Assembly (NCBI RefSeq): GCF_009846755.1
Contig: NZ_AQOR01000036.1
Coordinates: 1 to 35,769 of the forward strand
Direction of reading: 5' to 3'
Source: Alcanivorax sp. S71-1-4
GTDB taxonomy: Bacteria > Pseudomonadota > Gammaproteobacteria > Pseudomonadales > Alcanivoracaceae
DNA: 35,769 nt
This document shows positions 322 to 34,414 of the stretch, piece after piece. A program made the position numbers and the translations under genes. The notes beneath the pieces were generated by a model. That model made no database searches and had not been told where the DNA came from. It saw only the letters and a program-made list of their open reading frames with translations. Every line of letters begins with the position of its first letter. Within the stretch, counting starts at the first letter, position 1.

Positions 322-1356
322 ATGTCCGAGACGTTGACCATCACCCGCCCCGATGACTGGCATCTGCATTTCCGCGACGGCGGCATGCTCAACGGGACCG
401 TCCCGGCCACCGCGCGCGTGTTTCGCCGCGCCATCGTCATGCCGAATACCGTGCCCCCCGTCATCAACGCCGGCCACGCCGCCGCCTACCGCGAGCGCAT
501 TCTCAACGCCGTGCCAGCGGGCGTGGACTTCGAGCCACTGATGGTGATCTACCTTACCGACGCGACCACGGCCCGGGACATTGCCGACGCCGCCGCCAGC
601 GGCATCGTGTTCGGCGCCAAACTGTATCCGGCCGGTGCCACCACCAATTCCGACAGCGGCGTGCGCGACCCGGCCGGCATCATGCACCTGTACGAAGCGC
701 TGGAAAAACACGACCTGCCGCTGCTGTTGCACGCAGAAGTCACCGAGTCAGAGATTGATGTCTTTGACCGCGAAAAGGTCTTTATCGACCGTTACCTGAA
801 CGACATCCGCACACGTTTCCCGGCACTGCGCATCGTGTTCGAGCATGTCACCACCCTGGAAGGCGTGCAGTTTGTCCGTGACGCCGGCGACCTGACCGCC
901 GCCAGCGTGACCCCGCAGCACCTGATGATGAACCGCAACGATCTGCTGGTGGGCGGCGTGCACACGCACAACTACTGCCTGCCGGTGCTCAAGCGCCGCG
1001 ATCACCAGCAGGTGATCCAGCAGGTGGTCCTCAGCGGCCACCCGCGCTTTTTCCTCGGCACCGATTCCGCGCCGCACGCACGGCACCGCAAGGAAGCCGC
1101 CTGCGGCTGCGCCGGTTGCTATTCCGCGCCGGCGGCACTGGAGCTGTACGCCACCTTCTTCGAGGAATTCAACGCCCTGGACAAGCTGGAAGCCTTCGCC
1201 AGCCACTTCGGCCCGGATTTCTACCGGTTGCCGCGCAACAGCGATACGGTGACGCTGGTGCGCGAGAGCTGGCAGGTGCCTGACGCCCAGGAAATGGACG
1301 GCCAGCCAGTCGTACCCTGGCAAGCAGGCCGCACCCTGCACTGGAAATTGCGGTAG
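322..1356 (+). CDS. pyrC: Dihydroorotase, homodimeric type
   Basis: Cytosolic zinc enzyme of de novo pyrimidine synthesis; it interconverts carbamoyl-aspartate and dihydroorotate. The 344-residue product has the class II dihydroorotase length. Visible signature residues are the HxH motif WHLHFRDG (H14, H16), the lysine in GAKLYPAGATTN that is carboxylated in the family, histidines in LLLHAEV and FEHVTT, and the aspartate in GTDSAPH. I chose ATG 322 (preceded by GCGAGG) over an in-frame TTG at 289 because the family starts just before the TRPDDWHLH segment. The stop codon TAG (1354-1356) is formed by the first bases of the family-1 repeat that follows, and the gene converges on the ABC exporter at 1517. 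Confidence 0.97.
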   Translation: MSETLTITRPDDWHLHFRDGGMLNGTVPATARVFRRAIVMPNTVPPVINAGHAAAYRERILNAVPAGVDFEPLMVIYLTDATTARDIADAAASGIVFGAKLYPAGATTNSDSGVRDPAGIMHLYEALEKHDLPLLLHAEVTESEIDVFDREKVFIDRYLNDIRTRFPALRIVFEHVTTLEGVQFVRDAGDLTAASVTPQHLMMNRNDLLVGGVHTHNYCLPVLKRRDHQQVIQQVVLSGHPRFFLGTDSAPHARHRKEAACGCAGCYSAPAALELYATFFEEFNALDKLEAFASHFGPDFYRLPRNSDTVTLVRESWQVPDAQEMDGQPVVPWQAGRTLHWKLR

Positions 1357-1520
1357 GGTGGGTAGAGCCAAAGGCGAAACCCACAATGTCCATGTAGCGC
1401 ACTGCTCGCACAAAATCAGCGGAACTGCCCGGCTCCGCGCAGGTCAGTTTCGATGATTTTGCGGGAGTGAATAAGGGGCATGGGCCCGGTGGGTTTCGCC
1501 TTTGGCTCTACCCACCCTAC
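1353..1520. repeat. Family-1 palindromic (MITE-like) repeat, copy A, 168 bp
   Basis: Perfect 32-bp terminal inverted repeats (1353-1384 and 1489-1520) begin GTAGGGTGGGTAGAGC and continue through GGCGAAACCCAC. An imperfect inner stem pairs CACTGCTCGCACAAAATCA with TGATTTTGCGGGAGTG. No coding capacity. The TA next to each outer G could be a duplicated TA target. The left TAG is the pyrC stop and the right one (read on the minus strand) is the ABC-exporter stop. As a hairpin between convergent genes it may also terminate transcription from both sides. Confidence 0.88.
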
Positions 1521-3313
1521 GGCGCACTTTCGGCAGGTTCTCGTGACTGTTGTTGCCACAGGCGCGCATACACGCCCTGCTCCGCCAGCAACTGCTCATG
1601 CGTGCCGCGCTCGACAATGCGGCCCTGTTCCATCACCAGGATCTGCTCGGCATCCCGTACAGTGGAAAGCCGGTGGGCAATCACCAGCGTGGTGCGCTGC
1701 CGCGCCACTTCGTTGAGCGCACCAAGCACCGCCTGTTCCGACACCGAATCCAGTGATGAGGTTGCCTCGTCCAGCAGCAGGATCGGCGGGTTCTTCAGCA
1801 GCACCCGCGCCAGCGCGATACGCTGCTTCTCACCACCGGACAGCTTCAGCCCCCGCTCGCCCACTTTGGTCTGCACTCCTTCCGGCAACGCTTCGATAAA
1901 CTGCGCCAGATGCGCCAGCCGTATCGCGTCCTGGACTTCTTCGTCGCTGGCCCCCGGCCGGCCGTAGGCCACGTTGTTATAAATGGTGTCGTTGAACAGC
2001 ACGGTATCCTGCGGCACCACACCGATGGCCGCACGCAGGCTCTGTTGTGTCACGTCGCGCAGGTCAGCCCCGTTGATGCGGATGGCGCCGGCATCCACGT
2101 CAAAGAAGCGGAACAACAGACGCCCCAGGGTGGATTTGCCCGCGCCGCTGCTGCCTACCACCGCCACCTTGTGGCCGGTGGGTACGGTGAAACTGACGTC
2201 GCGCAGAATCTGGCGGTCAGGGTGGTAACCGAAACGCACCTGTTCAAAACGAATGCCTTCACCGCACTCCGGCAGTGGTCCTGCGTCGGGTCGGTCCACC
2301 ACTTTCGGGGGCTGTTGCAGCAGCGAAAACATGCGCTCCACATTCACCAGCGCCTGGCGGATTTCGCGGTAAATAAACCCCAGCGCATTGAGTGGAATGA
2401 ACAACTGGATCAGGTAGGCATTGATCATGGTCAGGTCACCCAGGCTGATCTCACCACTCTGCACCTGCCGCACCGCCATCCACATCATCACCGTCATGGT
2501 CACGGCAATGATCAACGCCTGCCCGGCATTCAGCGCTGCCAGCGACAGCCGGTTCTTCATGCGCGCCTGTTCCCAGTCGGCCAGGTCAACGTCATAGCGG
2601 CGTGATTCGAACGCCTCGTTGCCGAAGTACTTCACCGTTTCGAAATTCAGCAGGCTGTCGACGGCGCGCGTGTTCGAGCGATTGTCCATCTCGTTGGATT
2701 CACGCACGAAGCGCGTGCGCCATTCCGTCACCCGCACCGAGAACAGCACATAGATCACCACCGCCAGCAGCACCACGGTCACATAGCCGGGTGAAAACAC
2801 GGCAAACAGAATGCCGGCTACCAGCACGATCTCCAGCAACGTCGGCACAATATTGAACAGGGTAAAACGCAGCAGAAAACTGATACCGCTGGTGCCCCGC
2901 TCGATATCCCGCGCCAGCCCGCCGGTGCGGCGCGACAAGTGAAAATCCAGTTCCAGTTGATGCAGGTGCTCGAAAACTTCCAGCGACACCCGCCGCATGG
3001 CGCGCTCGGCCACGCGGGCGAAGACCGCGTCACGCAGTTCACTGAACAGCGTCGACGCCAGCCGCAGCAGCCCGTACGCCACCACCAGCAACGCCGGCAC
3101 TGCCAGCAGGCCAGTGGCACGGTCACCCGCTTCCAGCGCATCGACGATGTATTTCAGCGCCACCGGCATCGCCACCATGGCCAGCTTGGCAGCCACCAGC
3201 AGGGCCAGCGCCAGCAGCACACGCCCGCGGAATTCCATCAGGTAAGGCCACAGACGGCGCACAATGCGCCAGTCGGGGCGCGTGTCGATCTCGGTATCCT
3301 GCAAACGGTGCAA
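1517..3313 (-). CDS. Atm1-like ABC exporter (permease-ATPase fusion)
   Basis: 598-residue half-transporter expected to dimerise in the inner membrane. Residues about 25-330 form a six-helix ABC-exporter domain containing LLNFETVKYFGNE, a segment typical of the Atm1/HMT1 branch (mitochondrial Atm1, bacterial Atm1-like exporters of glutathione conjugates or metal-thiol complexes). The nucleotide-binding domain follows: Walker A GSSGAGKST (387-395), signature LSGGEKQR (from 491), Walker B ILLLDE (511-516) and H-loop H547. The Atm1 branch is clear; the exact cargo is inference. Transcription is divergent from the monooxygenase at 3426. The TAG stop (1517-1519) is formed by the right end of the family-1 repeat. 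Confidence 0.92.
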   Translation of the reverse strand: MHRLQDTEIDTRPDWRIVRRLWPYLMEFRGRVLLALALLVAAKLAMVAMPVALKYIVDALEAGDRATGLLAVPALLVVAYGLLRLASTLFSELRDAVFARVAERAMRRVSLEVFEHLHQLELDFHLSRRTGGLARDIERGTSGISFLLRFTLFNIVPTLLEIVLVAGILFAVFSPGYVTVVLLAVVIYVLFSVRVTEWRTRFVRESNEMDNRSNTRAVDSLLNFETVKYFGNEAFESRRYDVDLADWEQARMKNRLSLAALNAGQALIIAVTMTVMMWMAVRQVQSGEISLGDLTMINAYLIQLFIPLNALGFIYREIRQALVNVERMFSLLQQPPKVVDRPDAGPLPECGEGIRFEQVRFGYHPDRQILRDVSFTVPTGHKVAVVGSSGAGKSTLGRLLFRFFDVDAGAIRINGADLRDVTQQSLRAAIGVVPQDTVLFNDTIYNNVAYGRPGASDEEVQDAIRLAHLAQFIEALPEGVQTKVGERGLKLSGGEKQRIALARVLLKNPPILLLDEATSSLDSVSEQAVLGALNEVARQRTTLVIAHRLSTVRDAEQILVMEQGRIVERGTHEQLLAEQGVYARLWQQQSREPAESAP

Positions 3314-3425
3314 AACAGTCTCTCTCTGTCCGGGGCGGGCGCGTCATCATACTCCGCCGGGGCTTGAACCGGTGACCTGGTGCCCACATTAACGGAGCAC
3401 TTTATGCCCCCAACGGGAGCCGTGC

Positions 3426-4421
3426 ATGACCCGCCTGCAAGACACCGCCTTCTCCATGCTCGATCTGGTACCGATCCGGGACACCGGCACCGAAGCCGAG
3501 GCCCTGGCCAATTCACTGCAACTGGCGCGCCACGTGGAAGCCCTGGGCTTCCAGCGCTTCTGGCTCGCCGAACACCACAACATGGACGGTGTGGCCAGCT
3601 CTGCCACTGCGGTGCTGGTGGGTTATATTGCCGCCGGCACGTCTCGCATCCGCGTCGGCTCCGGCGGCGTGATGCTGCCAAACCACGCGCCACTGGTGGT
3701 GGCGGAGCAGTTCGGTACGCTGGCGACACTGTACCCCGGCCGCATTGACCTGGGGCTGGGCCGCGCGCCCGGTGCGGACCGCACTACGCTGATGGCGTTG
3801 CGGCGCAGCGCAGACGATGGCGAGGATTTCCCCGAGCACGTCAGCACATTGCAGGCCCTGCTTGGCCCGGCGCAGCCCGGCCAGAAGCTGTTCGCCGTAC
3901 CGGGCACCGACACCCGCGTGCCCATCTGGCTGCTGGGTTCCAGCCTGTTCAGCGCGCAGCTCGCCGCGCAGCGCGGCCTGCCTTATGCCTTCGCCTCGCA
4001 CTTCGCGCCGCGCATGCTGCATCAGGCGCTGCGCATCTACCGCGACAATTTCCAGCCGTCCGCCACCCTGGACAAACCCTACGTGATGGTGGGCGTGCCG
4101 TTACAGGCCGCCCCCACCAACGAGGAAGCCGAATACATCGCCACCACCGCCTACCAGCGCGCGCTGGCGCTGATTCGCGGGCACAGCCTGAAACTGGTGC
4201 CGCCCGTGCCAAGCATGGCCTCGCGATGGCTGCCACATGAGCAGGACGCGGTGGGCAACCTGTATGGACTGGCGGTGATTGGCGGGCCGGAGCGGGTGAA
4301 ACAGCGGCTGGACATGATCGTCGAGCAAACCCAGGCGGATGAGATCATCTTCACCTGCGACATGTACGACCAGGCACACCGGTTGCGCGCCTGCGAGATC
4401 GTGGCCGCGCTGCGGGACTAG
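3426..4421 (+). CDS. Luciferase-like (LLM class) flavin-dependent monooxygenase
   Basis: 331-residue TIM-barrel oxidoreductase of the bacterial luciferase-like family, closest in style to the YhbW/MsnO8 subgroup of single-subunit alkanal monooxygenase homologues. Typical segments are [10 protein letters not shown] at the N-terminus, FWLAEHHNM, the flavin-pocket strand [16 protein letters not shown], and [16 protein letters not shown]. It should use reduced FMN from a separate reductase; the substrate cannot be inferred. The chosen ATG has GGGAG about 8 bases upstream; an in-frame start further up is not needed. The 112-bp gap to the divergent ABC exporter must hold both promoters. The TAG stop (4419-4421) lies at the left junction of a family-2 repeat, the G being the first base of the repeat. 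Confidence 0.88.
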
Positions 4422-4573
4422 CAGGCTGCTGAAAAACAGCCTGTGCAGACAGCTTGATCAAGCTGTCTGCACATCAGGCGCGGCAAGCGATTGATTTTTC
4501 GCGCCCACCTTTGCGGACCTGCGCCGCAAAGGTGGCCTGGAAAAACCTCGAAGAGGCTTTTTCAACACTCTGC
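4421..4573. repeat. Family-2 palindromic (MITE-like) repeat, copy 1, 153 bp
   Basis: Begins GCAGGCTGCTGAAAAACAGC and ends CTTTTTCAACACTCTGC, giving imperfect terminal inverted repeats. Inside are a palindrome centred on TTGATCAA (GCAGACAGCTTGATCAAGC and its complement) and a second stem, CCACCTTTGCGG / CCGCAAAGGTGG. Flanks are CTA on the left and TAG on the right. The copy at 7346 has exactly the same length. The two TAG codons at its borders are the stops of the convergent genes on each side. Confidence 0.85.
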
Positions 4574-4869
4574 TAGGCGCGCTGACGCTGGCGCTTGAGA
4601 AACAGAATGCAGGCCGCCGGCACGTGCGTGATACCGAAGGCACTGACGAACACCAGCCAGGGCGTCAGGCCCGGCTGAACGCCCGCCAGCGGCCCGGCAT
4701 CGCTGAACAGATAGCTCATCATGAGACCGAACGCCGTGCCGACGCCAATCAGGATCAGGCGCGTGGCGCGGCGTTGCAGCACCGTATCACTGTGAAAGCG
4801 CAGCCGCAGGTGGGTGTACCACACCGCCACGAGGCCCATCAGCGCCATCAGTACCAGTAATATCTGCAT
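4573..4869 (-). CDS. Small membrane protein of unknown function (98 aa)
   Basis: 98 residues with three hydrophobic stretches (about 2-18, 36-52 and 68-91) separated by basic loops such as RLRF and QRRATR, and a basic tail LKRQRQRA; most likely a three-helix inner-membrane protein. AGGAG lies about 7 bases before the ATG. I do not recognise the family. The TAG stop (4573-4575) is built by the right end of the family-2 repeat, so the C-terminus may not be ancestral. Downstream on the other strand is the monooxygenase; nothing links their functions. Confidence 0.7.
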   Translation of the reverse strand: MQILLVLMALMGLVAVWYTHLRLRFHSDTVLQRRATRLILIGVGTAFGLMMSYLFSDAGPLAGVQPGLTPWLVFVSAFGITHVPAACILFLKRQRQRA

Positions 4870-5099
4870 TGCATTCTCCTGCCAGCAGCCGTCACCAGCA
4901 TGTCATAGGCTCAAGTCAGCCTTCATCCCTGGACACCACCGGCGCCGGGCCTCTGGCGTAAAACCGCGTAAAACCAGCGCGCCACCCGACGCAATCCGTT
5001 GCCCGTCTCGCCTGCGGCTGGGCATAGTCCGGGAGGAACACAGGGATACCGGCTCTTGAGCACCACCATCAGCGCCACACGGCCACCTGAGGAGGGACC
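4870..5099. other. Intergenic region upstream of egtB (230 bp)
   Basis: Lies between the divergent small membrane gene and egtB and should contain both promoters. I see a strong ribosome site (GAGGAGGGACC before the egtB ATG) but no convincing promoter pair, operator or RNA gene. Confidence 0.4.
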
Positions 5100-6383
5100 A
5101 TGCAGCACCGGCAAGCCAGCACGGCCGAGGACGCCAAGCGCTCACTCACAGCACACTTCAATGCCGTGCGTGCCCGTTCGGAAGAGGCCTGCGCGCCGCT
5201 GGACATCGAGGATTATTCGCTTCAGGCGATGCCCGAAACCAGCCCGCCGAAATGGCATCTGGCGCACACCACCTGGTTTTTCGAGACGTTCCTGCTGGCA
5301 CCCTGTGTGCCCGGCTATACGCCCTTCAATCCCGCCTTCCGTTACCTGTTCAATTCCTACTACAACGGCATTGGTGCCCAGTTCAGCCGCGCACAGCGCG
5401 GCCTGCTGTCACGGCCCACTCTGGCTGAGGTGCTGGCCTGGCGGGAAACCGTCAACCAGGGAGTGCGCGGCCTGCTCGCGCGCGGGCTGGACGAGGACAT
5501 GCAACGCCGTCTGCTCACCGGCCTGCACCACGAGCAGCAACACCAGGAACTGTTCTTCACCGACATCCAGTACAGCCTCTCCTGCAATCCGCTCAAGCCA
5601 GCCTATCGTACGCATCCGGGGGCCTGGCTCAGCGGCGACGACATTCCGCCGCTGCAATGGCACGCCCTGCCGGAAGGTCTGTACGCGCTCGGCGCCACCG
5701 GTGCGGAGGACTTTGCCTTCGACAACGAGACACCCCGCCACCGCGCCTTCCTGCCCGCGTTCGAGCTGGCCTCGCGCCCGGTCACCAACGGCGAATGGCT
5801 GGCGTTCATGGCCGACGGCGGCTACGACGACCCGGCCCTGTGGCTGTCCGACGGCTGGACAGCCCGCCAGCAGCAAGGCTGGCAGGCGCCACTGTACTGG
5901 CAGCATGACGAACACACCGGCTGGCAGAGTTTCACCCTGTACGGCATGCAGCCCATCGATCCGGCGCGGCCGGTATGCCACGTCAGTGCGTATGAAGCCG
6001 ACGCCTTCGCGCGCTGGGCCGGCGCACGCCTGCCCACCGAATACGAGTGGGAAGCCGCTGCGCAACACCTCGGCGCGCGGGTCGACGACGGCCACTTTGC
6101 CGACGACGGCCACTATCACCCGCGCCCGGTGCGCGCCACCCAACTGCTGGGCAGCGTCTGGGAATGGACCGCCAGCAGCTACGGCCCCTACCCCGGCTAC
6201 CAGCCACCGGCCGGCGCCCTGGGCGAATACAACGGCAAATTCATGTGTAACCAGCTGGTGCTGCGCGGTGGCAGTTGCGTGTCCGCCGCCGCCCATATCC
6301 GCACCAGCTACCGCAACTTCTTTTACCCGCCGGATCGCTGGCAGTTCAGCGGCCTGCGCCTGGCCAGAGGGAAACAGCCATGA
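5100..6383 (+). CDS. egtB: Ergothioneine biosynthesis sulfoxide synthase EgtB
   Basis: 427 residues. An N-terminal DinB-type four-helix domain (about 15-165) carries the three-histidine iron site expected of EgtB: H56 in WHLAHTTWFFE, and H144 and H148 in GLHHEQQHQE. The C-terminal half is a formylglycine-generating-enzyme-like (C-type lectin) domain with VTNGEWLAFMADGG, LPTEYEWEAAA, LGSVWEWT and VLRGGSCVS. The enzyme couples hercynine to a thiol (cysteine or gamma-glutamylcysteine) using O2 and Fe(II). No egtA or egtC is present beside it, so direct use of cysteine is possible but is inference. A strong GGAGG precedes the ATG. The stop overlaps the egtD start (ATGA), which predicts translational coupling. 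Confidence 0.94.
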   Translation: MQHRQASTAEDAKRSLTAHFNAVRARSEEACAPLDIEDYSLQAMPETSPPKWHLAHTTWFFETFLLAPCVPGYTPFNPAFRYLFNSYYNGIGAQFSRAQRGLLSRPTLAEVLAWRETVNQGVRGLLARGLDEDMQRRLLTGLHHEQQHQELFFTDIQYSLSCNPLKPAYRTHPGAWLSGDDIPPLQWHALPEGLYALGATGAEDFAFDNETPRHRAFLPAFELASRPVTNGEWLAFMADGGYDDPALWLSDGWTARQQQGWQAPLYWQHDEHTGWQSFTLYGMQPIDPARPVCHVSAYEADAFARWAGARLPTEYEWEAAAQHLGARVDDGHFADDGHYHPRPVRATQLLGSVWEWTASSYGPYPGYQPPAGALGEYNGKFMCNQLVLRGGSCVSAAAHIRTSYRNFFYPPDRWQFSGLRLARGKQP

Positions 6384-7357
6384 CCGCCCAGCCGCAACTG
6401 CACGCCCCGACTTTCGACTATATCGACAGCGGCCCGCCGCCCGACAACAGTGTGGCCGAGCTGATGGCCGGGCTGAGCGGCCCGCGCAAACGTGTCAGCC
6501 CCAAGTACTTCTATGACGAGCGCGGTTCCGAACTGTTCGAACAGATCACCGAGCAACCGGAGTACTACCCCACCCGCACCGAGCGCAGCATCCTGCGCCA
6601 GCACTGCGGCGACATCGCCAGACGGCTTGGCCGCCGGCAATTGCTGCTGGAACCCGGCGCCGGCAGTTGCGAAAAAGTGCGCCTGCTGCTGGACAGCCTG
6701 CAACCCGCCGCCTATGTCCCGATGGATATCAGCGGCGAGTTCCTGTGCCAGTCCGCGCAACGGCTTACGGAGGAATATCCCTGGCTGCCGGTCACCGCGC
6801 TACGGGCCGATTTCACCCGCATGCCGGCCCTGCCCCGGGCGCTGCCGCCGGCACCACGCTGCCTGTTTTATCCCGGCTCCACACTCGGCAATTTCACCCC
6901 GGCAGAGGCACGACGCTTTCTCTGCCACGCCGCCCGGCTGACCGGTCCCGGCGGACAACTCCTGCTCGGCATCGACCTGCACAAGGATCACGACGTACTG
7001 CATGCAGCCTATAACGACGCAGCCGGTGTCACTGCCGCCTTTAACCTGAACCTGCTCAATCACCTGAACCGATTGCTCGACGGCGAGTTCGACCCCGGCG
7101 CCTTCCGCCATGTGGCCGGCTACCACCGTGGGCGGCGGCGCATCGAAATGTATCTGGAAAGCCGCCATGCACAGCACGTGCGCTGCGGCGGCCGTACGGT
7201 GCAGTTCCGTCGTGGCGAGCGCATACTGACCGAGTACTCCTGCAAGTACACCCGGCACAGTTTCAGCCGGCTGGCCCGCCAGGCCGGCCTGGCCATCACC
7301 GGGCACTGGCAGGACGACGCCGGCCTGTTCGCGGTGTTTGCGCTGGCAGGCTGTTGA
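6380..7357 (+). CDS. egtD: L-histidine N-alpha-methyltransferase EgtD
   Basis: SAM-dependent enzyme that trimethylates histidine to hercynine, the first step of ergothioneine synthesis. 325 residues starting at the ATG that overlaps the egtB stop; upstream in-frame starts would lie inside egtB. Visible motifs: SPKYFYDERGSELFEQIT, the SAM loop LLLEPGAGSCEKVRLLLD, the acidic strand end YVPMDISGEFL, YPGSTLGNF and FNLNLLNHLNRLL, all in family order. Length matches characterised EgtD (about 320). Oddity: the last residues (AGC) and the TGA stop (7355-7357) are encoded by the left end of the family-2 repeat that starts at 7346, so the native C-terminus was probably replaced or trimmed by the repeat. 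Confidence 0.94.
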   Translation: MTAQPQLHAPTFDYIDSGPPPDNSVAELMAGLSGPRKRVSPKYFYDERGSELFEQITEQPEYYPTRTERSILRQHCGDIARRLGRRQLLLEPGAGSCEKVRLLLDSLQPAAYVPMDISGEFLCQSAQRLTEEYPWLPVTALRADFTRMPALPRALPPAPRCLFYPGSTLGNFTPAEARRFLCHAARLTGPGGQLLLGIDLHKDHDVLHAAYNDAAGVTAAFNLNLLNHLNRLLDGEFDPGAFRHVAGYHRGRRRIEMYLESRHAQHVRCGGRTVQFRRGERILTEYSCKYTRHSFSRLARQAGLAITGHWQDDAGLFAVFALAGC

Positions 7358-7498
7358 AAACAGCCTGTGCTGACGGCTTAATCAAGCCGTCAGCCAAATC
7401 AAGCGCCATCAGCGATTGATTTGGCGTGTCCACCTTTGCGGACCCGCGCCGCAAAGGTGGCTTGAAAAAGCCTCTTTGAGGCTTTTTCAACACCCCGC
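7346..7498. repeat. Family-2 palindromic (MITE-like) repeat, copy 2, 153 bp
   Basis: Same architecture and exactly the same length as the copy at 4421: left end GCAGGCTGTTGAAAACAGCC, palindrome around CGGCTTAATCAAGCCG, inner stem CCACCTTTGCGG / CCGCAAAGGTGG, right end GAGGCTTTTTCAACACC. It contains the egtD stop codon and separates egtD from the coiled-coil gene. I see no clear target duplication. Open frames crossing it are not genes. Confidence 0.85.
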
Positions 7499-7544
7499 AA
7501 AAGGTCAGCGCAGAGCAGCGGGCACCGTAACGGAGGAGGTATCC

Positions 7545-7841
7545 ATGGCAGAGCGCAAGGAATACATCGAACGCATCCGGGAAAAACTCGAGCAATGGAA
7601 CACTGAACTGACGCGGCTGGAACAACAGGCCCGCGACGCTGGCGAGGAGGCGCGACGCAACTGGGAAACGCGCAAACCGGAACTGGAGCAGGTGCTGGCC
7701 GACATGGAACAGCGCGTGCGCGAGGCGCGTGACCATGCCGGCGACACCTGGGACGCCACCCGCGCCCGGCTGGAACAGGGCTGGCAGAAAATCAACCGCG
7801 AGCTGCACGAACTGACCGAGCGGCTGTTCCCCGGCAATTGA
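7545..7841 (+). CDS. Short coiled-coil protein, sll1863-type stress-response family
   Basis: 98 residues, almost entirely charged heptad sequence (MAERKEYIERIREKLEQWN, then ETRKPELEQVLADMEQ and ARLEQGWQKINRELHELTERL), predicting a continuous helical coiled coil with no signal peptide or membrane segment. The opening 'xYIExIxxxLxxWNxEL' resembles the sll1863-type family as I recall it; the molecular role is unknown. ATG 7545 is chosen because GGAGGAGG lies 4-8 bases upstream; an upstream in-frame extension would run through the family-2 repeat. It has its own ribosome site after the repeat, so it is probably not part of egtBD. Confidence 0.75.
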   Translation: MAERKEYIERIREKLEQWNTELTRLEQQARDAGEEARRNWETRKPELEQVLADMEQRVREARDHAGDTWDATRARLEQGWQKINRELHELTERLFPGN

Positions 7842-7849
7842 CCCTGGCG

Positions 7850-7879
7850 CCGGGCGTTGCGCGGCGCCGCAACGCCCGG
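7850..7879. terminator. GC-rich hairpin between coiled-coil gene and secreted-protein gene
   Basis: CCGGGCGTTGCG (7850-7861) pairs perfectly with CGCAACGCCCGG (7868-7879) around a 6-base loop, 9 bases after the stop at 7841. There is no T-run, so it may be an attenuating or mRNA-stabilising hairpin and not a classical intrinsic terminator. Confidence 0.45.
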
Positions 7880-7937
7880 TACCGCTTGCCTTCCCTGCTA
7901 CGCTTGCCGCTTTCCGGGGATGCAAGAAGACCACACC

Positions 7938-8684
7938 ATGACCTATAAAAACCACGCCAGGCAGCTGCTGGCGAGCCTGCTGCTGTGCTGCGCCAGCGCG
8001 GCCCTTGCCCAGACACCCGCCGCACCAGACAGCCTCGACATGGCCGGGCAACTGGCCCTGCTGATCGCCGACGTCGGCATGATGCACTACGAGCCGGACA
8101 ACGGCGCCCATGTCGCCGGGGTCAAGGCGCGCATGCAGCGGTTATCACCCCTGATGGACCGCTATCTGGCGGCACAACCGTCTGCGGAGCGCCAGCGCCT
8201 GACACCGGAATGGCGGGCCATGCGCACGCTGTTGCTGGGCGACGATACCCAGGCCGGCCTTGTCGACGGCTACGACAGTTATCTGCATGCCACCTACTCG
8301 GCGCACCGCGACATCCTGCGTGACGCCATCTTCCGCGATGCCCGCCAGCAGGCCCGGGACGTGCCGGAACAGGCCACCCTGCAGGTGGCCCGCATCCTCA
8401 GCGGCTACATGCTGGTGGCCGCCAGCCCGTTCGGTTCGTTCGCCATGAGCAGCGAGGATGAAGACGCCGACCTGTCCCGACTGAGCCAGGACATGGACAC
8501 CCTGTGGCAGCAGTTGCTGGCCGACGCCCCGGCACAGAGCCCGCTGCGCGAGGCACAGACCAAATGGCTGTTCATTCGCGGCAGCGTGCTGCACGCCACC
8601 GAACAATCCCTGCCTTACATCGTCAGCCGCAACGCCCGGCAGATTCTGCTGACGCTGGCACGCCACGCACAGATAGCGTTGTAA
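7938..8684 (+). CDS. Secreted or periplasmic protein of unknown function (248 aa)
   Basis: MTYKNHARQLLASLLLCC followed by ASAALAQ is a clear Sec signal peptide, with likely signal-peptidase I cleavage after ALA near residue 24. The mature part is helical, rich in alanine, leucine and arginine, with no cysteine pattern or metal motif that I recognise. The C-terminal stretch SLPYIVSRNARQILLTLARH vaguely resembles the end of a periplasmic four-helix sensor domain, but I would not assign it. Start at ATG 7938 because upstream in-frame codons do not give a signal peptide. A hairpin terminator follows the gene. Neighbours give no functional hint. Confidence 0.75.
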   Translation: MTYKNHARQLLASLLLCCASAALAQTPAAPDSLDMAGQLALLIADVGMMHYEPDNGAHVAGVKARMQRLSPLMDRYLAAQPSAERQRLTPEWRAMRTLLLGDDTQAGLVDGYDSYLHATYSAHRDILRDAIFRDARQQARDVPEQATLQVARILSGYMLVAASPFGSFAMSSEDEDADLSRLSQDMDTLWQQLLADAPAQSPLREAQTKWLFIRGSVLHATEQSLPYIVSRNARQILLTLARHAQIAL

Positions 8685-8702
8685 GCACGCCACGCGGACA
8701 CA

Positions 8703-8725
8703 AAAAATGGCCGGGAGCCATTTTT
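8703..8725. terminator. Intrinsic terminator after the secreted-protein gene
   Basis: AAAAATGGC (8703-8711) and GCCATTTTT (8717-8725) form a 9-bp stem with a CGGGA loop and five T residues, 19 bases after the stop at 8684. The A-tract makes it usable from the other strand as well. Confidence 0.75.
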
Positions 8726-8780
8726 GACGTCGCGTTAGCGACGGCCCGAAGGGTGGCGGCCATGGATGGCACGCCACAAA

Positions 8781-8811
8781 AAAAAGCCCGCGGATCCACC
8801 GCGGGCTTTTT
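8781..8811. terminator. Bidirectional intrinsic terminator before nhaD
   Basis: AAAAAGCCCGCGG (8781-8793) pairs perfectly with CCGCGGGCTTTTT (8799-8811). Flanking A- and T-tracts make it a strong terminator in both directions. It lies 16 bases beyond the minus-strand nhaD stop (8827) and is the likely end of the nhaD transcript. Confidence 0.85.
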
Positions 8812-8826
8812 GCTGCCTGATTCAGA

Positions 8827-10281
8827 TCAGAGAATATGGAACAGGCTGTCGTTCAGCCAGATATGCGCCAGCACACTGGCGATATAGCCCAGCATGATTA
8901 CCGGCGCCCAGCGCAGATGGCCCATGAACGTATAGTGACCACGCGCCTGGCCCATCAGCGCCACACCGGCGGCGGAACCGATCGACAGCAGACTGCCACC
9001 GACACCGGCCGTGAGCGTAATCAGCAACCAGTGGCCGTGCGACATCTCTGGCGACATGGTCAGCACCGCGAACATCACCGGGATGTTGTCGATCACCGCC
9101 GACATGATGCCCAGGAAGACGTTGGCATAGGTGGCATTCCACTGCGTGAACAGCGTTTCCGACAGCAGCGCCAGATAGCCCATGAAGCCCAGGCCACCCA
9201 CGCACATCACCACGCCGTAGAAAAACAGCAGTGTGTCCCACTCGGCGCGCGCCACCCGGTTGAAGACATCGAACGGCACCACGCCACCCAGGCGCTTGAG
9301 CGCTTCCTCATCCCCTTTCTGTTCTGCCAGCGCACGTTTGCGTTCCAGCGAGCGCGGCAACGTGCGGCGCAGGAAATAACCAAAGAACTGCAGGTAACCC
9401 AGGCCCGTCATCATGCCCAGCACCGGCGGCAGGCCCAGTACGCTGTGACAGGCCACGGCGGTCGCCACGGTGAGCAGAAACAGTGCCAGGATGCGGAAGG
9501 CGCCGCGCTTGAGCTCCACCGCTTCGTACACGGTGTCCGGTTTGCGATTGGGAATGAACAGGCTCATCACCACCGCCGGCACCAGGAAATTGACCACCGA
9601 CGGCAGGAACAACGCGAAGAACTCGTAGAACTGCACCTTGCCGGCCTGCCACACCATCAGCGTGGTGATGTCGCCGAACGGGCTGAAGGCGCCGCCGGCA
9701 TTGGCGGCCACCACGATGTTGATACAGCAGAGATTGATGAAGCGGCTGTCGTTCTCGGCCACCTTCACCACCACCGCACACATCAGCAGCGCGGTGGTCA
9801 GGTTGTCGGCCACCGGCGAAATGAAGAACGCCAGCAGGCCAGTCAGCCAGAACAGCGTGCGGTAGCTGAAGCCCTTGCGGACCATCCAGGCACGCAGCGC
9901 ATCAAATAACCGGCGTTCTTCCAGCGCGTTGATGTAGGTCATCGCCACCAGCAGGAACAACATCAGCTCGGCGAATTCCAGCAGCGTGTGCCGGAACGCA
10001 TGCTCGGAGGCTTCGGTCATGCCGTGGTTCACGTACACGGCGCCGATCAGCACCCAGATGATACCGGCCGCCACCAGCACCGGCTTGGACTTGCGCAGGT
10101 GCAGCTTTTCCTCGGCCATCACCAGGGCATAGGCGAGCACGAAAATCACCAGGGCGATATAACCGGTCCAGGTCTGGGTCAGGTCAAGCTGGCCTTCAGC
10201 GGCCAGGGCGGGGGTACTCAGCAACGAAAGGAACAGAACGGATAAGGCGGAAACAACAGCCGGCCATAACGTGCGGTGCAT
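8827..10281 (-). CDS. nhaD: Na+/H+ antiporter, NhaD family
   Basis: 484-residue inner-membrane antiporter of the ion-transporter superfamily. An N-terminal hydrophobic segment ending STPALAAEG looks like the cleavable or first helix of NhaD proteins. NhaD-like segments follow: AEEKLHLRKSKPVL, LLEFAELMLFLLVAMTYINALEE, FISPVADNLTTALL, NIVVAANAGGAFSPFGDITTLMVW, DNIPVMFAVLTMSPEM and GVGGSLLSIGSAAGVALMG. The paired DN/GDITT segments are the conserved ion-binding half-helices. Start ATG 10281 was chosen because residues further upstream are not family-like. Role: Na+ or Li+ extrusion at alkaline pH. The leader upstream is long and can fold (see the 10282-10376 entry). Confidence 0.93.
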   Translation of the reverse strand: MHRTLWPAVVSALSVLFLSLLSTPALAAEGQLDLTQTWTGYIALVIFVLAYALVMAEEKLHLRKSKPVLVAAGIIWVLIGAVYVNHGMTEASEHAFRHTLLEFAELMLFLLVAMTYINALEERRLFDALRAWMVRKGFSYRTLFWLTGLLAFFISPVADNLTTALLMCAVVVKVAENDSRFINLCCINIVVAANAGGAFSPFGDITTLMVWQAGKVQFYEFFALFLPSVVNFLVPAVVMSLFIPNRKPDTVYEAVELKRGAFRILALFLLTVATAVACHSVLGLPPVLGMMTGLGYLQFFGYFLRRTLPRSLERKRALAEQKGDEEALKRLGGVVPFDVFNRVARAEWDTLLFFYGVVMCVGGLGFMGYLALLSETLFTQWNATYANVFLGIMSAVIDNIPVMFAVLTMSPEMSHGHWLLITLTAGVGGSLLSIGSAAGVALMGQARGHYTFMGHLRWAPVIMLGYIASVLAHIWLNDSLFHIL

Positions 10282-10376
10282 GACAGTCTCGCTCGACGAA
10301 CAACAGGGAGAAGAGAAGTGACCCGGCCGTGTCTGGCGATGTTTCCCGACCATCCCGGCGGGAGCCTCCGCTGTCG
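10282..10376 (-). promoter_or_regulatory. Candidate structured 5' leader (possible riboswitch) of nhaD
   Basis: In the nhaD leader GAUG (10354-10351) can pair with CAUC (10341-10338), and CGGGA/UCCCG (10363-10359 with 10348-10344) pair across it, which would give a compact H-type pseudoknot; GGC/GCC (10366-10364 with 10337-10335) could close it. A further stem pairs GACAG (10375-10371) with CUGUC (10286-10282), directly before the AUG. Na+/H+ antiporter genes in other bacteria are known riboswitch targets (Na+-I/DUF1646-type; nhaA-I and nhaA-II RNAs). I cannot confirm a match to any of them; this is a structural suggestion only. Confidence 0.35.
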
Positions 10377-10416
10377 AACCCATGAACGGTCGAGCCATGG
10401 AACGAACGGCGCGCAT

Positions 10417-10577
10417 GGTAGCACGGCGGGGCGCCGGACTGTAGCCGTTTGATCGAGGGAATTGACGTGGATCAGGCGGCGTTCTCTGCGGTTATTCGCC
10501 GCACTGACACAGGAAAATCGCTGAACCTGTTTCATTCGGACGATCGCCCTGCGACCAAGGTCGCAGAGTGGTTGAAC
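10417..10577. other. Non-coding stretch upstream of nhaD
   Basis: Part of a gap of about 470 bases between the nhaD start and the EamA gene. It has no credible gene; open frames here are short and not protein-like. GCGACCAAGGTCGC (near 10550) is a small palindrome. It probably holds the nhaD promoter, though no strong -35/-10 pair stands out. Confidence 0.35.
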
Positions 10578-10580
10578 TAA

Positions 10581-10753
10581 GGGCCTGTTTACACTAAATC
10601 CATCGGCCCTGTTGAGCCTGAAGGGCTGGCCCTGTTTTGCCACCCCGCCGCGTTAGCCTCTTCTCGTGTGGACCCACCACACTACGCATCGGCTGCCTTG
10701 CGGGGCGGCAAAACAGGGCCAGCAGGGCCGATGGATTTGGTGTAAACAGGCCC
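10581..10753. repeat. Palindromic MITE-like element, 173 bp, GGGCCTGTTTACAC ends
   Basis: 31-bp terminal inverted repeats (10581-10611 and 10723-10753) with one mismatch start GGGCCTGTTTACAC. A second inverted pair inside, CTGGCCCTGTTTTGCC (10626-10641) / GGCAAAACAGGGCCAG (10707-10722), extends the palindrome. The element is flanked by a direct TAA (10578-10580 and 10754-10756), a 3-base target duplication as found for some IS5-group elements. There is no transposase. Its right end plus the TA of the duplication forms the EamA stop codon. Confidence 0.85.
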
Positions 10754-11625
10754 TAAAGTACGAACGATCGTCGCCGCAACAACCCGGACGCCAGCACTGC
10801 CCCGGCGCTGGCCACCACCAGCGCAATTGCCTCGACGCCCGACAGCGACTCACCCAGCACCGGCACTGCCAGCAGGCCACTGATCACCGGCACCAGCGCC
10901 ATCAGCGCGCCCATCGCGGACGGACCAATGCTGCTCACCGCGCGCAGGTACAGCAGCATCGCCACTACCGTGGCGATCAGCCCCTGATAAACGCACTGCA
11001 ACAGGATGTCGCCGGTGGTAGCCGCCGCCAGATTGCCGGGCAGCCACAGCACGTATACCGGCAGGAACAATGCCGCCGACCACAGCGCGGTGGTGATGGC
11101 ACCGGTCCAGGCCGGCACCTGCCAGCGGCGCGCCAGCACGGTATACAGCGACCAGCACAACACCGCCGCCACCAGCCACAGATCACCGGCAGGGTCGCCG
11201 TGCCCGCCGGTACTGGCGAGCATCAGCGCGCCGCCCACGGCGATCGCCAGCAAGCCGAGCCAGCGCAACGGTGATGGCCGGTCGCCCAGTATCAGTGCGG
11301 CGAACAGTGCGGCGCCGAAAGGGATCAGCCCCGGCAGCATCACGGCAGCATGCACTGCCGAGGTCAGGCGGAAGCCCTGGTACACGGCCAGCCCATAACC
11401 AATGCCGCCGACCAGCGCCAGCGTCAGGCCACGCAGATTCCACCACAACCGCCCCGATCGCAGGAACGGCAGCAACAACAGGCTGCCAACGCCAAAACGG
11501 ATCGCCATGATGTCCCAGGGCGTGAGCGGGCTGCGCCCGCCCGCGCGGGACACCAGTACAAACCCTGCCCAGCAGGCGACAGCCAGCAGGCCGGCAATCA
11601 GGCCCTGTCGTTCTGTGTGCGTCAT
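10753..11625 (-). CDS. EamA/DMT-superfamily membrane transporter
   Basis: 290 residues with about ten hydrophobic helices in two similar halves, typical of EamA (drug/metabolite transporter) permeases; LLAVACWAGFVLVSRAG and the second-half VLCWSLYTVLARRW fit the repeat pattern. These are usually exporters of amino acids, metabolites or drugs; the substrate is not inferable. Start ATG 11625 has GGGAG about 8 bases upstream. It is divergent from the LysR regulator at 11720, the usual layout when the regulator controls the permease. The TAG stop (10753-10755) is made from the last base of the MITE-like element and its TA target duplication, so the natural end may have been altered. Confidence 0.87.
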   Translation of the reverse strand: MTHTERQGLIAGLLAVACWAGFVLVSRAGGRSPLTPWDIMAIRFGVGSLLLLPFLRSGRLWWNLRGLTLALVGGIGYGLAVYQGFRLTSAVHAAVMLPGLIPFGAALFAALILGDRPSPLRWLGLLAIAVGGALMLASTGGHGDPAGDLWLVAAVLCWSLYTVLARRWQVPAWTGAITTALWSAALFLPVYVLWLPGNLAAATTGDILLQCVYQGLIATVVAMLLYLRAVSSIGPSAMGALMALVPVISGLLAVPVLGESLSGVEAIALVVASAGAVLASGLLRRRSFVL

Positions 11626-11668
11626 GCGGTTCTCCCTATGGCCGGGCAGTATTCTGGGCGGGCTGGCC

Positions 11669-11685
11669 ATTCAGGTAAATTGAAT
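11669..11685. promoter_or_regulatory. Candidate LysR-type operator in the divergent promoter region
   Basis: ATTCA-N7-TGAAT is an inverted repeat between the divergent EamA and LysR genes, consistent with the dyad binding sites of LysR-family regulators (T-N11-A class in a broad sense). It lies 35 bases before the LysR start codon used here and about 45 before the EamA start. Inference from position and symmetry only. Confidence 0.4.
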
Positions 11686-11719
11686 TATCATGAACGCACT
11701 CATCATCAATGGTGAATTC

Positions 11720-12583
11720 ATGAATCTGCGTGACCTGGACTGCTTTGTGGCCGTGGCAGAGACCGGCTCCGTAGTGGCCGCCAGCCGGCGGCTGAACCGG
11801 GTGCAGTCGGGCATTTCCGTACGGCTCCGGCAACTGGAGCATGATCTCGGGCAGCCGCTGTTCGACCGCCGCGGGCGTGGCCTCACCCTGAACAGCGCCG
11901 GGGAGCGTTTCCTCGATGCGGCACGCGACCTGCTGCAGCGCGCCGAGCAGGCCCGCGACCTGCTGCGCGACCCGCGACCGGCCGGGCTGTTTCGCCTGGG
12001 CAGCATGGAAAGCACCATCGCCGCCCGGCTGCCTGCCCTGTTGAGCCGGTTCCATGTGGACTACCCGGCGGTGCAGCTGGAGCTGGTCAGCCAGCCATCG
12101 TGGACCACCCTGCGTGCCGTGGAACGCGGTGAACTGGACGCCGCCTTCGTCTCCGCCGATGCCGTCAGCGACCAGCTCAGCCGGCAGCCGGTATTTCGTG
12201 AGGAACTGGTGCTGGTGTCTGCGCGCGATCACCGCCCGATCAAAAAACCCGCCGATCTCGGCGACACGCCCCTGCTGGTGTTCTCACCGGACTGCGCCTA
12301 CCGCGCGCGGCTGGAGCGCTGGGCGCAGCAGGACGGCGGCGCGCCACGCCGCCGCATCGAGCTGCATTCGTATCATGTGATGCTCAGTTGCGCGGCGGCG
12401 GGCACCGGCGTCGGGCTGGTGCCGCAATCGGTGCTGGATGTGTTCGCCGACCGCGACAGGCTGGCACTGCACAGGCTGCCGAAAGCCATTGCGCGGGATG
12501 ACACCTGTCTGGTCTGGCATCCCGCGCGCTGCGGGGCAAACCTGGCAGCGCTGCGGGCGGTGATCAAGCCAATGTTACCGTAG
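11720..12583 (+). CDS. LysR-family transcriptional regulator
   Basis: 287 residues. The N-terminal winged helix-turn-helix (MNLRDLDCFVAVAETGSVVAASRRLN, then VQSGISVRLRQLEHDLGQPLFDRRGRGLTLNSAG) is typical of LysR regulators, followed by a periplasmic-binding-like effector domain (LFRLGSMESTIAARLPALLSRF, DAAFVSADAV, GTGVGLVPQSVLD). ATG 11720 is preferred to ATG 11690 because family members begin right at the NLRDL segment and GGTGA precedes it. It probably controls the divergent EamA permease. The TAG stop (12581-12583) is formed by the left end of a family-1 repeat. Confidence 0.93.
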   Translation: MNLRDLDCFVAVAETGSVVAASRRLNRVQSGISVRLRQLEHDLGQPLFDRRGRGLTLNSAGERFLDAARDLLQRAEQARDLLRDPRPAGLFRLGSMESTIAARLPALLSRFHVDYPAVQLELVSQPSWTTLRAVERGELDAAFVSADAVSDQLSRQPVFREELVLVSARDHRPIKKPADLGDTPLLVFSPDCAYRARLERWAQQDGGAPRRRIELHSYHVMLSCAAAGTGVGLVPQSVLDVFADRDRLALHRLPKAIARDDTCLVWHPARCGANLAALRAVIKPMLP

Positions 12584-12855
12584 GGTGGGTAGAGCCAAAG
12601 GCGAAACCCACCGGGTCCATGTTGCGCACTGCTCGCACAAAACCATCGAAACTACCTGCCACCCAAGCAGGGCAGTTTCGATGGTTTTGCGGGAGTGATT
12701 AACAGGCATGGACGTTGCGCGCTGCTCGCACAAAACCAGCGAAACTACACCATCGAAACTACCTGCCTGCCAAGCAAGGCAGTTTCGATGGTTTTGCGGG
12801 AGTGATTAACAGGCATGGACGTGGTGGGTTTCGCCGTTGGCTCTACCCACCCTAC
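12580..12855. repeat. Family-1 palindromic repeat, copy B, 276 bp, with internal tandem duplication
   Basis: Terminal inverted repeats 12580-12612 and 12823-12855 (GTAGGGTGGGTAGAGC ends, one mismatch in the AAAGG region). The inner module (CTCGCACAAAACC ... GGTTTTGCGGGAGTGATTAA) is present twice with a 107-base period, whereas copies A and 34231 have it once. The second module also has a short internal duplication (GCGAAACTAC / TCGAAACTAC). The TAG at the left end is the LysR stop; the TAG at the right end, read on the minus strand, is the BCCT stop. Confidence 0.88.
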
Positions 12856-25526: not shown

Positions 25527-25576
25527 TGTGCTGACCGCTTGATCAAGCGGTCAGCACAGGCTGTTTTTCAACAGCC
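25527..25576. repeat. Fragment of a family-2 repeat (left-end module, inverted)
   Basis: A perfect 32-bp palindrome (25527-25558; half-site TGTGCTGACCGCTTGA) is followed by the hairpin GGCTGTTTTTCAACAGCC (25559-25576). Read on the minus strand this equals the first part of the family-2 copies at 4421 and 7346; the CCACCTTTGCGG stem and right end are missing. It lies between the convergent glycine-zipper and HAD-like genes and may act as their terminator. Confidence 0.75.
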
Positions 25577-25590
25577 CGTCAAGCCACACC

Positions 25591-31755: not shown

Positions 31756-32080
31756 GGGAACCTCTGAATAACTCCCCGGTGGTTCTGGCTTTCCGGGCGG
31801 CACCTGATCAAGGCGCGACTTCGAAGGCATAGCGGGCTACGTCGAGAAGTCGCAATACCCCATTCGGGGCACAGGCGAAGAGCAGGTGCCGCCCGGAAAG
31901 CCCCGCAGGGCGGGCGCTACAGCACGCATTAGCCGCGCCTGTGCCCCGAATGGGGTATTGCGTCGCTTGACAAGGGCGATGCCACTGCGTGCCCCGAATG
32001 GGGTATTGCCCGCGCGCCGCGCCTTGCTACTGCATGCTGTAGCGCCCGCAGAACCACCGGGGAGTTATTCAGAGGTTCCC
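31756..32080. repeat. Composite MITE-like element, 325 bp, GGGAACCTCTGAATAA ends
   Basis: Perfect 32-bp terminal inverted repeats (31756-31787 and 32049-32080) enclose two further palindromes: a 20-bp pair 31787-31806 / 31883-31902 (CTTTCCGGGCGGCACCTG) and a 15-bp pair 31910-31924 / 32035-32049 (GCGGGCGCTACAGCA). The motif GTGCCCCGAATGGGGTATTG occurs three times: inverted at 31852-31872, direct at 31941-31961 and 31989-32009. No transposase or credible ORF. It fills most of the 492-base gap between gloA and argG, about 80 bases upstream of the gloA start. Confidence 0.88.
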
Positions 32081-34230: not shown

Positions 34231-34414
34231 GTAGGGTGGGTAGAGCGAACGCGAAACCCACCACGTCCAAGCGGCACACTGCTCCCACAAAACCATCGAA
34301 ACTTCCTACCTTCCTACCTTCCTACCTTCCGAAGCAGGGCAGTTTCGATGGTTTTGCGGGAGTGAATAACAGGCATGGACCCGGTGGGTTTCGCGTTCGC
34401 TCTACCCACCCTAC
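34231..34414. repeat. Family-1 palindromic repeat, copy C, 184 bp, with 8-base microsatellite
   Basis: Perfect 32-bp terminal inverted repeats, GTAGGGTGGGTAGAGC... and the complementary right end at 34383-34414. The arms read AGCGAACGCG where copies A and B read AGCCAAAGGCG, and both arms of this copy changed together. The loop holds the tandem 8-mer TTCCTACC (three perfect copies from 34303, then a partial one), absent from the other copies. It sits between the convergent rnt and CDF genes, 16 and 5 bases from their stops. Confidence 0.88.

Follow-up and report, generated by a model that had tools for sequence, protein, structure and literature searches.

Mobile repeats in the genome studied here bear, or create at their borders, a TAG codon facing outwards, and we put the probability at roughly 80% that copies overlapping a gene survive almost only if this TAG stands in the gene's reading frame. 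Three such families, of at least two unrelated kinds, very probably occupy the short spacers between the 3' ends of neighbouring genes in this genome.

Repeat ends form stop codons in the window

The window, meaning the whole stretch of 35,769 nucleotides that was analysed, is the contig C30 in a genome of 4.18 Mb (G000). Its PyrC-like protein shows 69-78% identity to 32 records, mostly named Alcanivorax, Alloalcanivorax or Alcanivoracaceae, and 96% identity to the PyrC-like protein of a same-genus genome, G004. Genes were called with a home-made codon model from the sequence only. Pfam results were consistent with the gene labels, giving for pyrC the amidohydrolase family only; the 98-aa protein had no Pfam match, and an Rfam search of the window returned zero matches.

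The first-pass annotation had described repeat ends as the stops of both genes at three convergent junctions and of the EamA gene, with two repeat families involved and a third at EamA. We confirmed every one of these stops in its place on a repeat end, as well as the three families. The features are as follows.

1353-1520, no strand: family 1 REPIN made of two GTAG REPs in inverted orientation, supplying the stops of the PyrC-like gene and the ABC exporter
1354-1356, + strand: stop of the amidohydrolase/PyrC-like gene, on a family 1 REPIN end
1517-1519, - strand: stop of the ABC exporter, on a family 1 REPIN end
4418-4421, + strand: left CTAG target duplication, its TAG being the monooxygenase stop
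4419-4421, + strand: stop of the luciferase-like monooxygenase, the TAG in the left CTAG duplication of family 2
4422-4572, no strand: family 2 MITE with IS5-family-type ends, CAGGCTGCTGAAAAA...TTTTTCAACACTCTG
4573-4576, - strand: right CTAG target duplication, its minus-strand TAG being the stop of the 98-aa protein
4573-4575, - strand: stop of the small protein (98 aa), the TAG in the right CTAG duplication of family 2
7347-7497 (right end approximate), no strand: family 2 copy with no YTAR flanks, common to G004
10581-10753, no strand: family 3 inverted-repeat element GGGCCTGTTTACAC..., whose end forms the EamA stop
10753-10755, - strand: stop of EamA, made by the end of the family 3 element
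12580-12855, no strand: longer family 1 REPIN with a duplicated core, supplying the stops of LysR and BCCT, common to G004
12581-12583, + strand: stop of LysR, on a family 1 REPIN end
12852-12854, - strand: stop of BCCT, on a family 1 REPIN end
25527-25577, - strand: partial family 2 copy, supplying no stop
34231-34414, no strand: family 1 REPIN between a convergent pair, supplying no stop

The genes flanking the REPIN at 34231-34414 each end with TGA, 19 and 8 nt ahead of the repeat. As a separate observation, the gene ending at 7357 enters the family 2 copy there and terminates at a TGA within the element, so that its last residues are element-encoded; the G004 sequence is the same.

Family 1 is a GTAG-type REPIN

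The family 1 end, GTAGGGTGGGTAGAGC, had 331 matches in G000 with at most 2 mismatches, compared with 1 for the reversed-pattern control, which gives about 165 copies when the ends are halved. G004 had 53 matches, or about 25 REPINs, and five other genus members examined had 0 to 3 matches each. Searches of plasmids gave no match for family 1 and one 38-base partial match for family 2. We read 91 of the approximately 165 copies with both ends, namely all 3 window copies plus a single copy from each of 88 among 93 fetched loci; five loci (L018, L068, L101, L124 and L129), where a single end was parsed, were dropped.

The border of the repeat is GTAG at 178 of 182 ends. Because some copies had been retrieved with a pattern containing GTAG, we recounted the 39 copies retrieved by an internal pattern lacking it, and 77 of their 78 ends had GTAG. 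In the first window copy, both arms fold into an unpaired GTAG plus an imperfect hairpin, and the family consists of inverted doublets that are extragenic and high in copy number. A single Y1_Tnp gene was found in G000 (25.2 bits, cut-off 23), with GTAGGGTGGGAAGAGC REP variants on either side that differ from family 1 by one base. G004 has two Y1_Tnp genes, one of which has two GTAGGGTGGGAAGAGC REPs on a single side. Judged by these sequence features, family 1 is a GTAG-type REPIN with a RAYT-like gene flanked by close variants, and it is presumably spread by this resident RAYT.

The near-invariance of GTAG, together with the REP/RAYT identity, indicates that the tetranucleotide belongs to the repeat and is not a TA target. 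A TA target duplication was therefore rejected for this family. The proposal that insertion into TA makes the TAG thus fails for family 1, since the TAG arrives with the repeat. The companion statement that every family starts with G beside TA is incorrect for family 2, whose first bases are CAGG and whose TAG lies in the CTAG duplication. Insertion of REPINs into pre-existing palindromes was also rejected, as left and right flanks were no more complementary than shuffled pairs.

Several other features of the REPINs were observed. Outside the GTAG of all 91 copies (e.g. window 1344-1353) lies a degenerate GGKGCS at positions -9 to -4, with about 0.2-0.5 bit per position. GTGCG also occurs at the REPIN-free pyrC site in G004, so the motif may be a target preference. 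At locus L102 (1266-1878; G000 C13:26.6-27.2 kb) six right-type arms follow one another every 90 bp in a REPIN cluster, which points to local tandem amplification. Contigs C3, C4, C6, C7 and C9 of G000 start less than 20 bases from a REPIN end; the assembly therefore probably breaks at REPINs.

REPIN ends stop facing genes almost only in frame

We assessed how often REPIN ends supply stop codons. Among the 182 ends, 161 face the 3' end of a gene, 20 face a gene directed away and 1 has no gene. The results showed that 33 of the 161 facing genes stop exactly in the GTAG of the REPIN end, while 1 stops 41 nt inside the REPIN, out of frame, and 127 end ahead of it (78 at 0-30 nt, 49 further). The 34 overlaps between gene and REPIN thus split 33:1 in favour of the frame, compared with about 1:2 for a random frame (binomial P = 4e-15), so that in-frame stops at the ends, counted over the 91 copies, are above chance for family 1. 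In the 39 copies retrieved without GTAG in the pattern, 15 of 70 facing genes stop in GTAG. A second TAG lies 9 nt further in, in the same frame. We infer that the in-frame bias is due to selection rather than targeting. When 33 stops per 91 copies is scaled to the genome, about 60 G000 genes may end in a repeat-made amber stop, and many of these may have an altered C-terminal length, to judge by the 14 of 23 genes described below.

Convergent placement was seen for 71 of 91 REPINs; the corresponding background, from 400 kb of G004, was 44 of 310 junctions (P = 4e-30). Only 4 of the 71 convergent copies stop both genes, two of which are in the window. About 3 would be expected if the ends were independent (0.205 squared x 71), and an excess of double stops in family 1 was accordingly rejected.

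REPIN junctions in a relative

We then compared the junctions with those of G004, a single relative with about 85-95% DNA identity at the compared loci, so that some C-terminal changes may be unrelated to repeats. All 26 pieces of one set and 28 of 30 in another had a match in G004, and loci without paired matches were excluded from the junction comparisons. All 33 REPIN-stopped genes had a G004 counterpart. In 10 of them the REPIN is common to both genomes and the length is equal; in the other 23 the REPIN was undetected in G004. For these 23 genes the C-terminal difference (G000 minus G004) was 0 in 9 and within 3 residues in 17, and the remaining 6 differed by -14, -6, -5, +6, +7 and +28 residues. 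As controls we used 70 facing gene stops located 1-60 nt before a REPIN absent from G004, of which 58 were unchanged in length and 69 were within 3 residues. C-terminal length was altered in 14 of 23 REPIN-stopped genes compared with 12 of 70 controls (P = 1e-4). A REPIN that supplies the stop often does so at or close to the former stop position, and the proteins are not spared as a rule; the first-pass view that both proteins stay intact is therefore true only sometimes for REPINs.

These lengths also bear on a neutral route, in which an upstream stop is lost by mutation and translation then ends in the repeat. Such read-through agrees with the 10 of 23 genes that are 1-28 residues longer than in G004, but length is unchanged in 9 of the 23 and reduced in 4. 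Moreover, it predicts that about two thirds of overlaps would be out of frame, against the 33 of 34 found in frame. The frame count speaks against read-through as the main route, and we regard it as very improbable.

The first-pass annotation had offered a more specific model, in which all families insert into the TA or YTAR of (overlapping) stops, duplicate the target and leave the proteins intact. In the relative, the stops of the 23 REPIN-stopped genes are TGA in 8, TAA in 8 and TAG in 7, and TAA/TAG is over-represented (15/23, compared with 23/70 other facing genes; P = 0.008), a result that tends to favour this model. The excess includes junctions that may carry decayed REPs in G004 (L133, L099 and L138) and one, L084, where a family 2 relic also gives both stops, at its two ends. 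At the pyrC/exporter site, G004 has no repeat and the two stops overlap in TTAA, as the model would have it; pyrC is equal in length in the two genomes, and the window's exporter has 3 additional residues. Across 38 loci (L140-L177), the exporter faces pyrC only in G004 (L140), L146 and L147, and in the latter two the pyrC stop is TGA.

Against the model stand the 8 of 23 relatives that stop with TGA, the excess of altered lengths over controls, and the near-invariant GTA at REPIN ends, with no duplicated TA seen. By eye, none of the G004 junctions viewed contained a clean TA or YTAR empty site for a REPIN, and the spacers at junctions without a REPIN were mostly different throughout from those of G000, so the insertion event itself was not seen. 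As an account of all families we consider the model unlikely: it is contradicted for family 1 as a general rule and stands for family 2, where the empty site at 4421 fits it.

Family 2 enters stop codons at YTAR targets

Family 2 elements, CAGGCTGTTGAAAAA...TTTTTCAACACCCTG, are usually about 152 bp long and flanked by YTAR. Some IS5-group elements follow a target rule of 4-bp YTAR duplication. We parsed 30 loci out of 44 places found in G000. YTAR stood on both flanks at 12 of these, 9 with identical 4-mers, and the remaining 18 were decayed, unparsed or had different flanks.

The empty site in G004 that corresponds to 4422-4572 is GACTAGCGC, where the convergent stops overlap in CTAG: the monooxygenase uses its TAG and the facing gene uses the TAG of the other strand. 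In the window, CTAG stands on either side of the element and both gene stops are retained. The monooxygenase tail has the same length in both genomes, and the small protein has one extra residue in the window (RQRA, compared with QQQR in G004). Stop codons kept across the insertion, as had been predicted, were thus observed once, at this site; for the REPINs the prediction mostly fails, with 14 altered lengths and 8 TGA stops among 23 genes.

Among the 12 YTAR-flanked copies, 9 have a stop on the YTAR, compared with 34 of 392 (8.7%) non-interior YTAR sites (P = 5e-8), a background drawn from 400 kb of G004, not G000, in which missed small genes would inflate the non-coding count. Counted by hand at ends with intact YTAR only, 11 of 18 facing genes end on it. 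Insertion at a YTAR stop is thus supported for family 2 by these copies and the 4421 site, but only 1 of the 12 copies gives stops to both genes; for family 1 the scheme is not supported.

A candidate full-length partner, the single copy examined, was found in G033: a 1.3-kb element that has the family 2 ends, is bordered by CTAG at left and right, and carries an IS5-family transposase (NF033581, 260.7 bits, cut-off 140). In nine G000 family 2 loci inspected by eye, most without a nearby right end, no transposase was recognised. The matching ends and target suggest that an IS5-type transposase moves family 2. In a side observation, G045, a distant genome of the family, had 128 matches to the YTARCAGGSTGTTGAAAAA end, compared with at most 38 in 45 other genomes searched.

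Family 3 and a further element

Family 3 is an inverted repeat, GGGCCTGTT..., whose GGGCCTGTTTACAC ends had 16 matches with at most 3 mismatches over 20 bases. Eight facing genes lie within 150 nt; counted by hand, with a contig-end row dropped, 5 of them have their stop in the family 3 end, and one copy (C19:41767-42031) stops the genes on both sides. The copy at 10581-10753 is flanked by TAA or CTAA on both sides, and other copies have unequal flanks. In G004, EamA ends at a family 2 relic (TAG followed by CAGGATGTTGAAA), with a tail one residue longer. Elsewhere in the window, at about 31756-32080, we observed an inverted-repeat element of 0.33 kb, GGGAACCTCTGAATAAC..., which contains repeats of CCCCGAATGGGGTATTGC; its empty site in G004 is clean.

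Possible terminator activity of the repeats

The strong convergent bias of REPINs would also be expected if they were retained as bidirectional terminators replacing ordinary ones, but avoidance of other places explains this bias equally well. Several REPIN-free G004 junctions have a stem-loop, in some cases with a T-run (L104, L105, L114 and L115). Of 54 convergent loci with both anchors, 11 share the REPIN with G004 and 43 do not; the folding counts cover 40 of these 43 and omit three loci with G004 spacers above 400 nt (L077, L130 and the third window copy). At -15 kcal/mol or below, 26 of 40 G004 spacers qualified, compared with a shuffle mean of 19.5 (40 shuffles, maximum 25), in favour of replacement. 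At -10 kcal/mol the 30 of 40 G004 spacers were near the shuffle mean of 28.8 (maximum 31), and the G000 flanks were similar to their shuffles (13 vs 11.2 and 5 vs 5.0). Loss of native terminators beside REPINs, which had looked strong at 30 vs 13 of 40, was rejected after the shuffles removed most of the difference.

The window contains 17 terminator-like sites, compared with a shuffle mean of 9.9 (sd 3.7). One of them (1438-1419, - strand) is in the first REPIN's core and another (4473-4442, - strand) in the family 2 copy at 4422-4572. No T-run accompanies the REP hairpin, nor did the scan place any terminator-like site at the REP arms. The folding comparison is weak. Terminator activity of REPINs is plausible, and its being the reason for their retention at convergent junctions seems somewhat doubtful.

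How the repeats may come to end genes

We favour the reading that reading frame decides which overlapping copies survive. Elements would land in many places, and copies in tight 3' spacers would persist best; among those overlapping a reading frame, the ones that give an immediate in-frame TAG would persist. In family 1, the GTAG needed by RAYTs would double as an amber stop that replaces the old one, often altering the last few residues. In family 2, the target itself would often be the stop, with harm avoided from the outset: YTAR has TAA or TAG on both strands, and a YTAR at a stop codon would be duplicated together with the stop. Two TAA/TAG stops that share four bases necessarily form a YTAR, and overlapping convergent stops (CTAG, TTAA, CTAA, TTAG) could therefore accept family 2 without loss of either stop, as at 4421. 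Family 3 ends would form TAG where the flank ends in TA.

A broader idea, which we advance tentatively and rate at somewhat less than even odds, is that stop codons form a systematic safe harbour. Mechanistically unrelated YTAR elements and GTAG REPINs would then converge on termini that restore a stop whichever way they are read, overlapping stops would be a damage-free niche, and waves of elements would rewrite stop usage. If so, such waves would also alter the final residues of dozens of proteins in a single species.

Relation to known systems

The core of the finding has already been described for one repeat class, and the present case mainly illustrates, at good resolution, how such repeats are known to behave. 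A 2013 paper (PMC3733652) states that GTAG REPs often provide TAG stops; here the effect is quantified by frame and against an orthologous genome, and Alcanivorax is absent from that paper's main text. GTAG REPs and REPINs, as portrayed in PMC3733652, PMC3116915 (2011) and PMC8266576 (2021), resemble family 1 in the GTAG plus imperfect palindrome, the inverted doublets, the repeat-flanked RAYT and the convergent preference. In Pseudomonas fluorescens, intergenic repeats likewise have a Tail-repeat-Tail bias, interpreted as the least-worst location, and the passages of PMC2718517 on this bias do not discuss stop codon supply.

For family 2, the nearest likeness is TnRErm46/ISRe46, where the targeted CTAG supplies stops so that some target genes are uninterrupted (2019, PMC6794481). 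It too duplicates its CTAG target, but it is of another family (IS481) and autonomous, and a CTAG shared by two convergent genes is not described in the sections concerned. MITEPsy1 of Pseudomonas syringae, reported to insert into and duplicate the 4 nt CTAG or YTAA, similarly has inverted repeats with TGAAAAAGCC; unlike here, the portions of PMC3189936 that treat it describe no link to stop codons. Among the openly licensed PMC papers listed in our searches, we found none on YTAR elements entering overlapping convergent stops.

Taken with the copy numbers of about 165 REPINs in G000 and about 25 in G004, the results show how compact bacterial genomes tolerate bursts of repeats. At 4421, an element has clearly entered a stop that two convergent genes shared, and each gene has kept its stop; this simple principle lends itself to testing wherever a genome contains YTAR elements.
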